Source of the DNA: Pseudomonas putida W15Oct28
GTDB lineage: Bacteria; Pseudomonadota; Gammaproteobacteria; Pseudomonadales; Pseudomonadaceae
Direction: 5' to 3'
Length of the DNA: 64,000 bases
Assembly: GCF_000708715.2 (NCBI RefSeq)
Contig: NZ_JENB01000004.1
Coordinates: 62,001-126,000 of the forward strand
Part shown: one piece after another, positions 11,516 to 22,099 of the stretch
Numbering within the stretch: the first letter of the stretch is position 1
Layout of the letters: each line of letters begins with the position of its first letter
Program-made: the position numbers and the translations under genes
Notes under the pieces: model-generated
What the model saw: the letters and a program-made list of their open reading frames with translations, nothing else
Database searches by the model: none
What the model was told of the DNA's origin: nothing

Positions 11516-12445
11516 ATGCGTATCGTTGTTGCATTGGGCGGCAACGCCCTGCTGCGTCGCGGCGAGCCCATGACCGCTGACAACCAGCGTGCCAATATCC
11601 GCACCGCCACCGAACAGATCGCCAAGATCCACCCTGGCAACGAACTGGTCATTGCCCACGGCAACGGTCCGCAAGTCGGCCTGCTGTCGCTTCAGGCGCT
11701 GTCCTACAAGCCCGACGAGGCCTACCCGCTGGACGTGCTGGGCGCCGAAACCGAGGGCATGATCGGCTACATGATCGAACAGGAGCTGGGCAACCTGCTG
11801 GCCTTCGAGGTGCCGTTCGCCACCCTGCTGACCCAGGTGGAAGTGGACGCCAACGACCCCGCCTTCAAGGACCCGACCAAGTTCATCGGCCCGGTCTACA
11901 GCAAGGAAGAGGCCGAGCGCCTGGCCAAAGAGAAAGGCTGGGTGGTCAAGGCCGATGGCGACAAGTACCGCCGTGTGGTGGCCAGCCCGAAACCCAAGCG
12001 CATCTTTGAAATCCGCCCGATCAAGTGGCTGCTGGAAAAGAACAGCATCGTGATTTGCGCAGGCGGTGGCGGCATCCCCACCATGTACGATGAAAACCGC
12101 AAGCTCAAAGGCATCGAAGCGGTGATCGACAAGGACCTGTGCTCGGCACTGCTGGCCGAGCAATTGGAAGCCGACCTTCTGATTATCGCCACCGACGTCG
12201 ATGCGGCTTACATTGACTGGGGCAAGCCGACGCAAAAAGCCATTGCCCAGGCCCACCCGGACGAACTCGAACGCCTCGGCTTCGCCGCCGGCTCCATGGG
12301 GCCGAAAGTGCAAGCTGCCAGTGACTTTGCCCGCAACACCGGCAAGGTGGCGGTGATCAGCTCGCTGGAAAACATCGAGGACATCGTCAAGGGCACCGCC
12401 GGCACCCGCGTTTCCACCGCGAAGCCTGGGATCAGCTACCGTTGA
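11516..12445 (+). CDS. arcC: Carbamate kinase
   Basis: This 309-residue cytosolic kinase transfers the phosphate of carbamoyl phosphate to ADP, giving ATP, ammonia and carbon dioxide. It is the energy-yielding step of the pathway. The amino-acid kinase fold is clear: [14 protein letters not shown] at the N-terminus, [12 protein letters not shown], the [10 protein letters not shown] loop and [15 protein letters not shown]. An AAGGA site precedes the ATG. A 180-bp gap with a REP pair separates it from arcB, but co-transcription remains likely. Confidence 0.96.
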
Positions 12446-12501
12446 ATGCAGTGGGCGGGCGCCTGGCGCCCGTCGTTTTCGACCTTCCGGAGAATTCCGC
12501 C

Positions 12502-12873
12502 ATGGCTCAGTTTCAACCCGGTCACGTGCACATCGAGCGCACTGCGCTGAACAGCGCCGACCATAGCTACGACCTCAACATCGAGTACGAGGCGACGACA
12601 CAAGATCCCAAGGAAGGCCGAGGGATACTGTTCCACATGCATGGCAGCATCGAGGGCAAGACGGTCGATGAAAAGTTCTTTCTGCCCAAGGATCAGGCAC
12701 TGCCCAGCTTTTTGATGGTACTGAGCCGCAAGGCCCAGGCTCATCTTGCAGCACCCAAGAAATTCGAAACCCTCAGCTCGCCACACAAGATCTACGACGC
12801 GATGTTCGAAGACATCCGCGCCAAACTGGATGTGAAGTCGGGCGACTCTATCAAGCCTGAACATCTGGAATGA
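12502..12873 (+). CDS. DUF5064 family small protein
   Basis: This 123-residue soluble protein has no signal peptide or membrane segment. I recognise it as the Pseudomonas DUF5064 type, which has no known function. Notable stretches are FHMHGSIEGKTVDEKFFLPKD and a charged C-terminus. It starts at the ATG at 12502 with CGGAG upstream, 56 bp after arcC, and the next REP pair follows it. It is therefore probably the last gene of the arc operon. A role in the deiminase pathway is only inferred from position. Confidence 0.75.
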   Translation: MAQFQPGHVHIERTALNSADHSYDLNIEYEATTQDPKEGRGILFHMHGSIEGKTVDEKFFLPKDQALPSFLMVLSRKAQAHLAAPKKFETLSSPHKIYDAMFEDIRAKLDVKSGDSIKPEHLE

Positions 12874-13060: not shown

Positions 13061-14569
13061 ATGCGCATCCACGTCAGCTTCATCGACCGCGTCGGCATCA
13101 CCCAGGAAGTCCTCGCCCTGCTCGGTGCCCGCCACCTCAACCTGGACGCCGTGGAGATGGTCCCGCCGAACGTCTACATCGACGCCCCCACCCTCAGCCC
13201 CGCCGTGCTCGAAGAACTGCATGACGCGCTATTCGAGGTGCAGGGCGTGCAATCGGTGGACGTGGTCGACATCCTTCCCGGCCAGCGCCGCCACCTGCAG
13301 CTCGATGCCCTGCTGGCAGCGATGAGCGACCCGGTGCTGGCGGTGGACAGCGCAGGCATGGTGCTGCTGGCCAACCCGGCGCTGATCGCCCTGTGCGGCC
13401 GCGAATCCGCCGGGCGCTCGGTGGGGGAACTGTTTGGCGACCCCGCGCTGCTGCAAGCGCTGCTGGACAACAACTTCCACCTGCCCATGCGCGAGATGCA
13501 GCTGAACGGCCAAAGCCTGCTGCTGGACGCCATGCCGATCACCAACGCCGGTGGCCTGCTGACGCTGTACCCCCCAACGCGCATGGGCGAACGCCTGTCG
13601 GCCCTGCACCACGACCATGCCGAAGGCTTCGATGCCCTGCTTGGCGAGTCGCCCGCCATCCGCACCCTCAAGGCCCGCGCCCTGCGCGTGGCGGCGCTCG
13701 ATGCACCGCTGCTGGTGCATGGCGAAACCGGCACCGGCAAAGAGCTGGTAGCCCGCGCCTGCCATGCCATCAGCAGCCGCCACGCCGCACCGTTCCTGGC
13801 CCTGAACTGCGCCGCACTGCCCGAAAGCCTGGCCGAGAGCGAGTTGTTCGGTTACGCCCCCGGCGCCTTCACCGGCGCGCAACGCGGTGGCAAGCCCGGG
13901 CTGATGGAGCTGGCCAACCAGGGCACGGTGTTTCTCGATGAAATTGGCGAAATGTCGCCGTACCTGCAGGCCAAGCTGCTGCGTTTTCTCAGCGATGGCA
14001 GCTTCCGCCGGGTGGGCGGCGACCGCGAAGTGAAGGTGGATGTGCGCATCATCAGCGCCACCCACCGCGACCTGGAGCGCATGGTCGCCGAAGGCAGCTT
14101 CCGCGAAGACCTGTTCTACCGCCTCAACGTGCTCAACCTGCAGGTACCGCCCCTGCGCGACAGGGGCCAGGACATCCTGATGCTGGCGCACTTCTTCATG
14201 CAGCAAGCCTGCACACAGATCCAGCGCCCACCTTGCCGGCTCACCCCCGCCACCCACTCTGCACTGCTGGCCAACCCTTGGCCGGGCAATGTGCGCCAGC
14301 TACAGAACGTGATTTTCCGCGCAGCGGCCATCTGCGAGGGCAACCTGGTGGATATCGGCGACCTGGACATTGCCGGCACCTCGGTGGCCCGCGGGCAGGA
14401 CGGCGAAGTGGCCAGCCTGGAACAGGCCGTGGGTGATTTCGAGCGCGAACTGTTACAGCGCCTGTATGCCAGTTACCCGTCGACACGGCAACTGGCCGGG
14501 CGCTTGCAAACTTCGCATACCGCTATTGCCCAGCGGCTGCGTAAGTATGGAATATCCGGGAAACTTTGA
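13061..14569 (+). CDS. gcsR: TyrR/PhhR-like sigma-54 enhancer-binding protein (GcsR-like)
   Basis: This 502-residue regulator has an N-terminal ACT-type ligand domain (about 1-72), a PAS-like domain (about 80-190), an AAA+ domain and a C-terminal helix-turn-helix (about 455-500). The AAA+ domain carries Walker A GETGTGKE at about 221 and the sigma-54 contact loop GAFTGA at 268-273. PhhR controls aromatic amino acid genes, but this gene sits near gcvH-gcvP-sdaA-gcvT. That matches P. aeruginosa PA2449 (GcsR), the glycine-responsive activator of the gcs2 operon. Candidate target boxes and a sigma-54 promoter lie before gcvH. The ATG has no strong ribosome site, and CATACT near 13022 could be its -10. 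Confidence 0.85.
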
Positions 14570-14696
14570 TACGTGTCGTCAAAACCGACAGCTCATTCAG
14601 ACTTTTCCTAGCCGCGTAGCCGCAATTGACTGGAGTGCTCGCCGTAGAATGGTGACATCGTAATTTCGCATGTCACCTTGAACGAAGAGTACCTTG

Positions 14697-15902
14697 ATGT
14701 TTGAACTCGATTTTTACGGGACACTTGTAGCCGCCTCTTTAGTACTGCTATTGGGGCGCGGGCTGGTCGCACGCATTGGTTTTCTGCGCGTTTACAATAT
14801 CCCGGAACCTGTTGCAGGCGGATTGGTCGTTGCCTTGGCGCTCTTGGCATTGCGCAGTTTCGATGTACAGGTCCAGTTTGATACCTCATTGCAAACACCG
14901 TTGATGCTGGCGTTCTTCGCCACCATCGGTTTGAGTGCAGACTTCGCCAGCCTGAAGAAAGGCGGGCGTGTGGTCGCCGTGTTCCTGCTGGTGGTGACTG
15001 GCTTGCTGCTGGTTCAGAACGCCATGGGCATCGGCCTGGCCACGGCCTTGGGGCTCGACCCACTGATGGGCCTGCTGGCCGGTTCGATCACCCTGTCGGG
15101 TGGGCACGGCACGGGCGCTGCCTGGGGCGCGACGTTCACCGAAAAGTTTGGCCTGGCTTCGGCTTCGGAACTGGCGGTGGCCTCTGCAACGTTCGGCCTG
15201 GTGCTGGGCGGTCTGATTGGTGGCCCGGTTGCCAGGCTGTTGATCAAGCGGGTAAAAACACACGGCATCGAAGAAGAAGCACCCCAACTGCCAAAAGGCT
15301 TTGAACAGCCGAATAAAGAGCGCCTGATTACATCATTTTCATTTATCGAAACCTTGGCACTGATTGCGGTCAGCTTGCTGGCGGGCACCTTGCTTAACGG
15401 TTTGTTGAAAGGCACTGCATTTGAATTACCGACCTTCGTGTGCGTGTTGTTCGTCGGCGTGATGTTGCGCAACGGTCTTTCCGCATTCGGCTTCTACCGT
15501 GTATTCGAGCGGGAAGTATCGGTACTGGGCAATGTCAGTTTGTCGCTGTTCCTGGCCATTGCCTTGATGTCGCTCAAATTGTGGGACCTGGCCGCACTGG
15601 CCTTACCCTTCTTCATCTTGCTGGCCGCGCAAACACTGGTCATGGCCCTGTTCGCGATCTTCGTGACGTTCAGGGTGATGGGCCGCAACTACGATGCAGC
15701 AGTACTGGCTGCCGGGCACTGCGGCTTCGGCCTGGGGGCGACGCCAACGGCCATCGCCAACATGCAGGCGGTAACCCAGCGCTACGGCGCCTCGCACATT
15801 GCCTTCCTGGTGGTGCCGATGGTGGGGGCATTCTTCATCGACATCATCAATGTGATCGTGATCAAGTTGTACCTGGCATTGCCCTTCCTTACTGGAGGTT
15901 GA
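14697..15902 (+). CDS. gltS: Sodium/glutamate symporter
   Basis: This 401-residue inner-membrane protein imports glutamate with sodium. It has about 10-11 membrane segments and the GltS signature blocks LAGSITLSGGHGTGAAWG and AGHCGFGLGATPTAIANMQAV, the two pseudo-symmetric re-entrant regions. A TTG at 14694 directly precedes the ATG; the ATG is preferred. It stands alone between the regulator gene and the gcv operon, and a strong dyad lies just after its stop. Codon use is slightly less GC-biased at the 5' end than in its neighbours. Confidence 0.93.
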   Translation: MFELDFYGTLVAASLVLLLGRGLVARIGFLRVYNIPEPVAGGLVVALALLALRSFDVQVQFDTSLQTPLMLAFFATIGLSADFASLKKGGRVVAVFLLVVTGLLLVQNAMGIGLATALGLDPLMGLLAGSITLSGGHGTGAAWGATFTEKFGLASASELAVASATFGLVLGGLIGGPVARLLIKRVKTHGIEEEAPQLPKGFEQPNKERLITSFSFIETLALIAVSLLAGTLLNGLLKGTAFELPTFVCVLFVGVMLRNGLSAFGFYRVFEREVSVLGNVSLSLFLAIALMSLKLWDLAALALPFFILLAAQTLVMALFAIFVTFRVMGRNYDAAVLAAGHCGFGLGATPTAIANMQAVTQRYGASHIAFLVVPMVGAFFIDIINVIVIKLYLALPFLTGG

Positions 15903-15919
15903 ACCCCCACAACCCTCAC

Positions 15920-15958
15920 GTGTATCGATTTCAATACGACGGATTGAAATCGATACAC
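15920..15958. repeat. 16-bp perfect inverted repeat upstream of gcvH
   Basis: GTGTATCGATTTCAAT (15920-15935) and its exact reverse complement (15943-15958) flank the 7-nt spacer ACGACGG. No T-run follows, so it is not a typical terminator for gltS. Each arm contains a sequence close to the GcsR box TGTAACG-N4-CGTTCCG, read from opposite strands (15921-15938 plus, 15940-15957 minus). Confidence 0.75.
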
Positions 15959-15974
15959 ACGCATTCGAATGCGT
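15959..15974. repeat. 16-bp perfect palindrome abutting the previous dyad
   Basis: ACGCATTCGAATGCGT equals its own reverse complement and begins at the base after the 15920-15958 repeat ends. It could be a dimeric regulator site or an extension of the same structure. Confidence 0.65.
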
Positions 15975-16020
15975 CTGCACAAGGGTTTGATCCCAAAACC
16001 CTTTCCCCCTTCTCGCCAAC

Positions 16021-16038
16021 TGTAGCGTTTTCATTCCA
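16021..16038 (+). promoter_or_regulatory. Candidate GcsR enhancer box
   Basis: TGTAGCG-TTTT-CATTCCA matches the reported GcsR site TGTAACG-N4-CGTTCCG at 11 of 14 positions. It lies about 90-105 bp upstream of the inferred sigma-54 start, a usual enhancer distance. Confidence 0.5.
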
Positions 16039-16100
16039 CAAGAATCACAAATACAGTTCAGTAATTTTCTAACTAGCTGATTTAAAAGGCTTTTTGTGAT

Positions 16101-16115
16101 TGGCCGCAATATTGC
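16101..16115 (+). promoter_or_regulatory. Sigma-54 (-24/-12) promoter of the gcv operon
   Basis: TGGCCGCAATATTGC has the invariant GG (16102-16103), exactly 10 intervening bases and GC (16114-16115). It fits the consensus TGGCAC-N5-TTGC. The start would be near 16127, about 55 bp before the gcvH ATG. An adjacent enhancer-binding protein gene supports it. Confidence 0.82.
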
Positions 16116-16181
16116 TTAGGGAATCCCAACTCAAGAGCGCGGAGCCACCGCGCCCAACGCCCTGCTTCCCGAGGATTCCCC

Positions 16182-16565
16182 ATGAGCGAGTTGCGTTTCA
16201 CTGAAGATCACGAATGGCTGCACGTCGAAGCCGATGGCAGCGTCACCGTGGGCATCACCGCCTACGCCCAGAACGCCCTTGGCGATGTGGTTTTCGTGCA
16301 ACTGCCCGAGTTGCAGCAGTATGAGAAAGGCAGCGAAGCGTCCACCGTCGAATCGGTCAAGGCCGCCAGCGGCGTGTACATGCCCCTGACCGGCGAAGTG
16401 GTCGAGGTCAACGGCCAGCTCGAAAGCAGCCCGGAACTGGTCAACGAAGACCCGATGGGCGAAGGCTGGTTCTTCCGCTTCAACCCGGCCGACATGAGCG
16501 AAGTCACCGCCCTGCTCGACCAGGACGCCTACGACCGCCTGATCAAAGCCAACGACGACGCCTGA
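16182..16565 (+). CDS. gcvH: Glycine cleavage system H protein
   Basis: This 127-residue protein shuttles the aminomethyl group from glycine on a lipoyl arm between the P, T and L proteins. The lipoylated residue is Lys60 in the motif [11 protein letters not shown]. The C-terminus has the usual PMGEGWFF block. It is first in gcvH-gcvP-sdaA-gcvT, and gcvP begins 11 bp after its stop. An apparent sigma-54 promoter drives the operon. The L protein gene is not in the window. Confidence 0.97.
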
Positions 16566-16576
16566 GGAACCCCACC

Positions 16577-19432
<2,856 letters not shown>

Positions 19433-19450
19433 CGCGGCCTTGGAAAAGCT

Positions 19451-19555
19451 GGGGCCGCTTTGCGGCCCTTTCGCGACACAAGGCCGCTCCTACAAGGGCG
19501 GCACCTATCCCTGTAGGAGCGGCCTTGTGTCGCGAAAGGGCTGCGCAGCAGCCCC
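19451..19555. repeat. REP pair between gcvP and sdaA
   Basis: Arms starting GGGGCCGCTTTGCGGCCCTT (19451) and its near reverse complement (ending 19555) flank about 17 nt. It lies inside the operon and could protect the gcvHP part of the message. Confidence 0.9.
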
Positions 19556-19573
19556 AAATCAGGAGGTCTCACC

Positions 19574-20950
<1,377 letters not shown>

Positions 20951-20953
20951 CCC

Positions 20954-20961
20954 AACAATAA
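20954..20961 (+). promoter_or_regulatory. Candidate Hfq/Crc CA motif before gcvT
   Basis: AACAATAA fits the catabolite-repression motif AANAANAA, bound on mRNA by Hfq with Crc in pseudomonads. It lies just 5' of the AAGGAG ribosome site of gcvT, the usual place for translational repression. One short motif alone is weak evidence. Confidence 0.45.
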
Positions 20962-20977
20962 AACCAAGGAGTCACCG

Positions 20978-22099
20978 ATGTCCGAAACACTGCTCAAGAC
21001 CCCACTGCACGCCCTGCACCTGGAACTGGGTGCGCGCATGGTGCCGTTCGCCGGCTACGACATGCCGGTGCAGTACCCGCTGGGCGTGCTCAAGGAACAC
21101 CTGCACACCCGCGAGCAGGCCGGCCTGTTCGATGTCTCGCACATGGGCCAGATCATCCTGCGCGGTGCCGAGGCCGCCAAGGCCCTGGAAAGCCTGGTGC
21201 CGGTGGATATCATCGACCTGCCGGTGGGCATGCAGCGCTATGCCATGTTCACCAATGAACAAGGCGGCATCCTTGACGACCTGATGGTTGCCAACCTGGG
21301 CGACGACACCCTGTTCCTGGTGGTGAACGCCGCCTGCAAGGACCAGGACCTGGCCCACCTGCAAACGCACATCGGCAGCCGTTGCGAAGTGCAGCCGTTG
21401 TTCGAGCAACGTGCCCTGCTCGCCCTGCAAGGGCCGGCAGCGGTCAAGGTGCTGGAGCGCCTGGCCCCGGAAGTGGCCGGCATGACCTTCATGCAGTTCC
21501 GCCCGGTAAAACTGCTGGGTGAAGACTGCTTCGTCAGCCGCTCGGGCTACACCGGCGAAGACGGCTACGAAATTTCGGTACCGGTGGACGCTGCCGACGC
21601 CTTGGCCCGCCACCTGCTGGATCAGCCCGAAGTACAGCCTATCGGCCTGGGCGCGCGCGACTCGCTGCGCCTGGAAGCCGGCCTGTGCCTGTATGGCCAT
21701 GACATGAATACCGAAACCACCCCGATCGAAGCCAGCCTGTTGTGGGCGATTTCCAAGGTGCGCCGTGCCGACGGTGCACGTGCGGGCGGCTTCCCCGGCG
21801 CCGAAGCGATCTTTGCCCACCAGCGCGACGGTGTGGCACGCAAACGTGTCGGCCTGTTGCCGCAGGAGCGCACGCCGGTACGTGAAGGCGCGGATATTGT
21901 CGATGCAAACGATAAACCGGTGGGTAAAGTGTGCAGCGGCGGCTTTGGCCCGACACTCGGCGCACCTGTCGCAATGGGTTATATCGATAGTGAACATGCT
22001 GCACTCGACACCGCACTGTTTGCCGTGGTGCGCGGCAAGAAGGTTGCCTTGAAAGTCAGCAAAATGCCTTTCGTGGCGCAACGTTACTACCGTGGTTGA
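20978..22099 (+). CDS. gcvT: Glycine cleavage system T protein (aminomethyltransferase)
   Basis: This 373-residue enzyme releases ammonia from the H-protein-bound aminomethyl group and makes methylene-tetrahydrofolate. The blocks [27 protein letters not shown] and [12 protein letters not shown] are family hallmarks, as is the C-terminal [20 protein letters not shown]. It starts at ATG with AAGGAG upstream, 27 bp after sdaA, and is followed by a clear hairpin. It closes the gcv operon. Confidence 0.96.

Follow-up and report, generated by a model that had tools for sequence, protein, structure and literature searches.

Introduction

The closest described counterpart of the promoter considered here is that of gcvH2 in Pseudomonas aeruginosa, where each of three boxes is bound by GcsR and induced expression requires GcsR, RpoN, and glycine (Sarwar et al., 2016, PMC4894688). 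The published box, TGTAACG-N4-CGTTCCG, consists of two 7-bp palindromic arms, and putative GcsR sites were earlier reported in P. putida KT2440, P. fluorescens Pf0-1, and P. syringae DC3000 (PMC4894688). In P. fluorescens overexpressing gcsR, gcvP or gcvT was mutated in 9 of 10 motile isolates, which the authors attribute to a build-up of glycine acting on GcsR (PMC10482368), and in P. putida the putative regulator PP_0997 has been deleted and gcvH-I placed under a synthetic promoter (PMC12421819).

Two further systems offer partial likenesses. TyrR boxes (TGTAAA-N6-TTTACA) are also 18-bp two-armed sites with a TyrR-type helix-turn-helix reader (PMC4894688), and sigma-54 promoters at which looping is often assisted by IHF, such as those of NifA and Pu, also combine enhancer sites, an IHF-like site, and a -24/-12 element (PMC7057263). 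The term "IHF" is absent from the main text of the PAO1 paper (PMC4894688). Among the matches listed in a search of open-licence titles and abstract openings, which is weak evidence of absence, there was no report of an IHF site at a gcvH promoter or of a second GcsR operator, and the one review among the matches listed for GcsR and IHF does not link the two in the portion available.

The promoter of the gcvH-gcvP-sdaA-gcvT operon

The window, by which we mean the whole 64-kb stretch of DNA analysed, holds the following features, given with coordinates and strand.

13061..14569, plus: gcsR ortholog, TyrR-like sigma-54 enhancer-binding protein of 502 aa, predicted activator (Pfam and NCBIfam matches)
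14694..15902, plus: gltS, sodium/glutamate symporter, a cargo gene that separates gcsR from the operator (NCBIfam gltS 583 bits, cut-off 311)
15920..15958, no strand assigned: 39-bp inverted repeat formed jointly by boxes 1 and 2, 16 bp per arm perfect
15921..15938, plus: GcsR box 1, near-palindrome, TGTATCGATTTCAATACG (28.4 bits)
15940..15957, no strand assigned: GcsR box 2, near-palindrome, CGGATTGAAATCGATACA (24.5 bits; 19 bp from box 1)
15980..15992, minus: predicted IHF core, GATCAAACCCTTG, with one mismatch (G for W) to WATCAANNNNTTR
16002..16004, minus: short A-tract reading AAA, which likely belongs to the IHF site
16021..16038, plus: GcsR box 3, TGTAGCGTTTTCATTCCA (22.4 bits; 81 bp from box 2)
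16101..16116, plus: sigma-54 -24/-12 element, TGGCCGCAATATTGCT (T 16101, GG 16102-16103, GC 16114-16115)
16182..16565, plus: gcvH, with which the operon begins (NCBIfam GcvH 160 bits, cut-off 117)
16577..19432, plus: gcvP (NCBIfam gcvP 1499 bits)
19574..20950, plus: sdaA, L-serine ammonia-lyase (NCBIfam sda_mono 724 bits)
20978..22099, plus: gcvT (NCBIfam GcvT 569 bits)

The gcsR product matches Sigma54_activat (225 bits) and HTH_50 (54 bits) in Pfam and HTH_TypR in NCBIfam (88.3 bits against a cut-off of 30), while falling below the TyrR equivalog cut-off (458.8 vs 576 bits). The gene adjoins the glycine cleavage cluster on the same strand (13061-14569, with gcvH from 16182), and gcsR, gltS, and gcvH-gcvP-sdaA-gcvT (16182-22099) are all on the plus strand, with a gap of 279 bp between gltS and gcvH. 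A small DUF5064 gene (12442-12873; Pfam 141 bits) lies immediately 5' of gcsR. A plasmid search with the region gave no match.

An earlier note on this DNA had pointed to a GG-N10-GC at 16102-16115 and to three 18-bp sites at 15921-15938, 15940-15957, and 16021-16038, adding that P. aeruginosa GcsR binds three repeats of this type. Direct reading confirms the former, the latter score 28.4, 24.5, and 22.4 bits, and the statement on P. aeruginosa is borne out by the published work (PMC4894688). The matrix used for scoring was symmetrised and trained on 120 other promoters of the GcsR1 class defined below, with the window and its near-copy L130 excluded. The same matrix gives the runner-up 18-mer of the window 2.8 bits, and no site in 20 Markov-1 random windows exceeds 14.4 bits, so the boxes are not chance occurrences; the best score in the gcsR-gltS intergenic region is -12.5. 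Three 18-bp two-armed boxes thus stand 5' of a -24/-12 element, the arrangement by which a GcsR-controlled promoter is recognised.

The layout resembles that of PAO1 in having gcsR nearby, three 18-bp two-armed boxes, a predicted sigma-54 element (79 bp 5' of gcvH in PAO1), and the genes gcvH, gcvP, sdaA, and gcvT, and differs from it in that the window operon has no glyA and that its operator is separated from gcsR by gltS (Sarwar et al., 2016, PMC4894688). Against the published consensus, boxes 1, 2, and 3 match at 10, 11 (box 2 as its reverse complement), and 11 of 14 letters. The CG at box positions 6-7, a trait of the P. aeruginosa consensus, is found in all three window boxes with box 2 read on the minus strand, while 3 of the 6 window arms end in TG and not in CG as in the P. 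aeruginosa boxes (PMC4894688). At positions 12-13 the CG/GG of the P. aeruginosa three-site consensus is absent, all three window boxes having CA; position 13 is A in 48, 37, and 43 of the 122 GcsR1 promoters for boxes 1, 2, and 3, respectively, and we take CG/GG at these positions to be a P. aeruginosa letter and no family trait. The arm of the GcsR1 boxes can be written YGTANYG, with a G at position 7 that sets it apart from the TyrR box.

Comparison with related loci

We compared the window with other gcsR-relative loci, 161 in all: the window itself, the first 20 of 80 named loci, and 140 stretches from the same genus and family, one of which comes from the window's own genome. These loci were drawn from the best-scoring matches, which biases the set towards close relatives. 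A same-strand gcvH downstream of gcsR was present in 142 of the 161; the other 19, which lack one within the stretch taken, were left out, and removal of the near-copies L009, L167, and L179 left 139 distinct gcvH promoters, 122 of them belonging to GcsR1 (regulators without the residues SHTAIG) and 17 to a paralog, GcsR2. Start codons were taken from the protein match (L213 starts at GCA), and the boxes of L231 were positioned by hand.

With the element of each promoter chosen as the best GG-N10-GC candidate 30-160 bp 5' of the start codon, a GG-N10-GC starting TGGC is present in 139 of 139 promoters. The boxes and the -24/-12 element are kept in close relatives, where their loss would, according to the earlier note, have counted against its proposal; this conservation supports the reading of the region as a putative GcsR-type sigma-54 promoter of gcvHP-sdaA-gcvT. 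One comparison locus, L206, is likely to be P. aeruginosa or a near relative, having boxes with the published P. aeruginosa letters, a GG 78 bp 5' of gcvH, and spacings of 20, 81, and 84 bp. Its regulator, which fits the description of PAO1 GcsR, is 80% or 78% identical to that of the window depending on which of two programs is used; the published criterion for the regulator is more than 80% identity to PAO1 GcsR (PMC4894688).

The distance from gcsR to gcvH ranges from 261 to 8447 bp across the 122 GcsR1 loci and exceeds 1 kb in 51 of them. The interval between gcsR and box 1 (14570-15920 here, with a counterpart in L130-L189) is a hotspot for cargo whose content varies by species. In part of the relatives gltS was not found between gcsR and the operator, and the two loci scanned for interval cargo, L132 and L161, carry gltS, a TonB receptor, an epimerase, a LysR regulator, an amidohydrolase, a chemoreceptor, and an S-type pyocin; despite the differing cargo, the three boxes and the -24/-12 element are still present in both.

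Spacing of the promoter elements

What is held nearly constant among these promoters is distance. The step from box 1 to box 2 is 19 bp in 121 of 122 GcsR1 promoters, the exception being L206 at 20 bp; that from box 2 to box 3 measures 79-83 bp in 118 of 122, and exactly 81 bp in 100; and the start of box 3 lies 80-85 bp from the GG of the sigma-54 element in 121 of 122. The window has 19, 81, and then 81 bp to the GG. The length from GG to ATG is variable (56-109 bp across the 139 promoters) and falls outside this conserved frame. Odd gaps between boxes 2 and 3 were seen at L014 (134 bp) and at L018, L246, and L216, two of which have 69 bp and one 59 bp. Gaps of 69 and 59 bp are about one or two helical turns short of 81 bp, and such natural variants suggest assembly on one face of the helix. 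The conserved feature is a spacing ruler and not a head-to-head geometry of the boxes.

A predicted IHF site between boxes 2 and 3

The earlier note overlooked one feature of the box 2-3 gap, a predicted IHF core on the minus strand. From the IHF core consensus, WATCAANNNNTTR, the window site departs by one mismatch. A core with at most one mismatch is present in this gap in 83 of 92 GcsR1 promoters whose -24 element is of the TGGCC type, compared with 2.4% of shuffled gaps, and in 2 of 30 TGGCA-type GcsR1 promoters and 1 of 17 GcsR2 promoters. In 80 of the 83 it lies on the minus strand at an offset of 21-23, and when strand and offset are fixed in this way, the site is found in 80 of 92 TGGCC-type promoters (missing in 12) vs 2 of 30 of the TGGCA type. 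The gap of L206 has no IHF-like site, its best match having two mismatches.

In 80 promoters of identical spacing, the best-conserved columns are those of the three boxes and of the motifs GCAAGG.TTTGATCC and CTTTTT, with other columns of the gap mostly below 0.7 bits; the core is present in 73 of the 80. An IHF site has an A-tract 5' of its core, and GCAAGG.TTTGATCC and CTTTTT would fit both halves of a predicted IHF site. A run of four T is present in 65 of the 80 aligned promoters, the window having three only. At sigma-54 promoters, the usual place of IHF is between the whole enhancer and the promoter, and by the geometry of IHF the bend here would come to lie within a few bp of the midpoint between boxes 2 and 3. 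Unlike the NifA and Pu promoters, the window has its IHF-like site among the activator boxes, near that midpoint.

The same conserved block could alternatively be bound by a protein that is not IHF, or by an additional regulator linking gcvH to another signal. In favour of this, conservation extends to the letters on either side of the core (GC before, CC after), but the four spacer letters vary (ACCC, AGCC, AACC, AAGG, and others) while the core letters stay, as an IHF site allows, and the T tract lies roughly where an IHF site would be expected to have its A-tract. We therefore regard a different factor as unlikely and retain the predicted IHF site. Its role has a limit: the gap of 79-83 bp is kept in 26 of 30 TGGCA-type promoters although 28 of the 30 have no IHF-like site, so IHF is not what fixes the spacing and would be an aid to it. 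A trade-off between a weak -24 (TGGCC) and the presence of an IHF site, strong in the raw counts, was considered and set aside, as a sign test on 4 independent pairs cannot reach 0.05; the link between the IHF-like site and TGGCC is unproven as independent of descent.

Directly readable from the DNA are the boxes and their spacings, the -24/-12 element, and the IHF-like core, together with the conservation of each. From boxes at conserved spacings and a GG-N10-GC, we predict with good confidence a glycine-induced sigma-54 promoter switched by GcsR, likely with an IHF bend between boxes 2 and 3. One GcsR dimer would occupy each box, those at boxes 1 and 2 lying side by side; IHF would bend the DNA sharply about midway between boxes 2 and 3, and the bend is predicted to bring the box 3 dimer against the dimers at boxes 1 and 2. 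Glycine would then allow the three dimers to close into an ATP-driven hexamer that would open the complex of RNA polymerase and sigma-54, leading to expression of gcvH-gcvP-sdaA-gcvT. The dependence on GcsR, RpoN, and glycine is carried over from P. aeruginosa and is presumed to hold here.

A promoter known from one species would in this way become a family-wide architecture with measurable rules, and the ruler, together with an IHF-like site within the enhancer, may provide a clean system for studying how three dimers form a sigma-54 hexamer. The promoter is also relevant to the engineering of glycine flux in P. putida.

Hairpins and the orientation of boxes 1 and 2

The repeat formed by boxes 1 and 2 has, as the earlier note described, 16-bp perfect arms (15920-15935 with 15943-15958); a repeat search extends the arms to 15920-15938 and 15940-15958, 19 nt each and 95% complementary. 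A perfect 16-bp palindrome, ACGCATTCGAATGCGT (15959-15974), abuts box 2, and by eye only parts of it recur in relatives. As RNA, the repeat (15920-15958) would form a very stable hairpin just 3' of gltS.

This raises the alternative that the inverted repeat and a second hairpin, AAGGGTTT..AACCCTT, are intrinsic terminators or 3' ends of the gltS mRNA and not an operator. The folding energies are in keeping with such a role, -28.3 kcal/mol (z -7.6) for 15903-15975, with gltS ending at 15902, and -9.2 kcal/mol (z -2.3) for 15975-16015. Against this, the first stem is not followed by a T run and a terminator scan of 14500-16300 found 0; the boxes and the ATCAA-N4-TTG core also occur at loci where gltS was not found in the interval, such as L145; and among the 80 aligned promoters that core is found in 73 and the hairpin stem in 22. 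We consider this alternative improbable and set it aside, the hairpin being unconserved and no GC stem with a T run being present in 14500-16300, and we keep the reading of boxes 1 and 2 as operator sites, whose RNA hairpin might additionally help to end or protect the gltS mRNA.

The earlier note further proposed that boxes 1 and 2, being inverted and head-to-head, form a different layout that presents two dimers face to face. While its observation of the repeat is real, the claimed novel geometry is not: the inverted likeness is unconserved, the boxes are near-palindromic, and their spacing is common. Scored against the asymmetric published letters, box 2 fits better backwards in 93 of 122 GcsR1 promoters, and box 1 fits forwards in 10 of 122, with 64 ties. 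A strict head-to-head reading (box 1 forward and box 2 backward) was found in 4 of 122, namely the window, L141, L216, and L246, and was not seen, by published-letter scoring, in the nearest relative, L130; its rarity is mostly because box 1 has no preferred direction in those 64 promoters. The consensus of each box position is self-complementary at 14 of 18 bases, and with two palindromic arms per box, a dimer would read a box alike from both sides. The strict reading is thus rare and unconserved, and for palindromic sites orientation would not be expected to matter.

That the window's lineage has a distinct inverted, face-to-face operator altering how two GcsR dimers meet is highly improbable, since what speaks for it (17 of 18 bases shared by boxes 1 and 2 when one is reverse-complemented vs 11 when they are compared directly, the 16-bp perfect arms, a likeness of at least 16/18 that is inverted in 14 of 122 promoters and direct in 5, and a strict head-to-head reading that is at least unusual at 4 of 122) is met by the absence of a prevailing orientation (the likeness of boxes 1 and 2 is greater in inverted comparison in 51 of the 122, greater in direct comparison in 49, and equal in 22), the lack of the strict reading in L130, the want of direction of a dimer on a palindromic box, and a box 1-2 spacing that is the common 19 bp. 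We read the inverted repeat as a by-product of adjacent palindromes, with no new geometry. Of the earlier interpretation as a whole, the GcsR-type sigma-54 promoter stands and the inverted geometry falls away.

A paralogous regulator in the same genome

The genome of the window carries a second gcsR-like gene, 71% identical to the first, 5' of gcvH and gcvP (L226, contig C1, 36794-52317), where a further open reading frame is read as a candidate glyA. The operator spacings at this locus are 19, 81, and 85 bp, the same ruler but with a different spelling of the boxes: all 6 half-sites carry G at arm position 3. Across the classes, position 3 is G in 100 of 102 half-sites of the 17 GcsR2 promoters vs T in 633 of 732 of GcsR1.

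Matrices trained on each class score their own promoters higher in 122 of 122 GcsR1 and 17 of 17 GcsR2 cases, most of these being in the training set. With own loci excluded from training, the GcsR1 matrix gives boxes 1, 2, and 3 of the window 28.4, 24.5, and 22.4 and those of L226 10.6, 15.0, and 16.8; under the GcsR2 matrix the window boxes score 14.7, 18.5, and 20.3 and the L226 boxes 17.7, 20.2, and 24.0. By these scores, most boxes clearly favour their own class, and at box 3 the margin is small.

Residue 490 is Ala in 122 of 122 GcsR1 and Gly in 17 of 17 GcsR2 regulators, the classes having been defined by this helix residue itself, and no other position of the DNA-binding domain (452-498) has a class-specific residue shared by at least 90% of the members of each class. 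The pattern suggests that residue 490 may read arm base 3. A quick tree built from 82 of the 139 regulators plus 4 outgroups places GcsR2 in one clade (SH-aLRT 100), so residue 490 and base 3 underwent one change each, and the correspondence between them counts as one event. The GcsR/GcsR2 pair could offer a specificity switch of one residue and one base.

A bolder combined proposal, which we hold only tentatively and consider rather doubtful, is that the glycine promoters of Pseudomonas are split enhancers folded by IHF at the midpoint of a rigid 81-bp gap, one distant dimer joining an adjacent pair into a hexamer, and that the second copy is kept apart by a one-letter code in which Ala490, in the recognition helix, reads T3 and Gly490 of GcsR2 reads G3, with no cross-talk between two glycine sensors that are close relatives. 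The spacing of boxes 2 and 3 in GcsR2 promoters is slightly unlike that of GcsR1, at 84-85 bp in 14 of 17.
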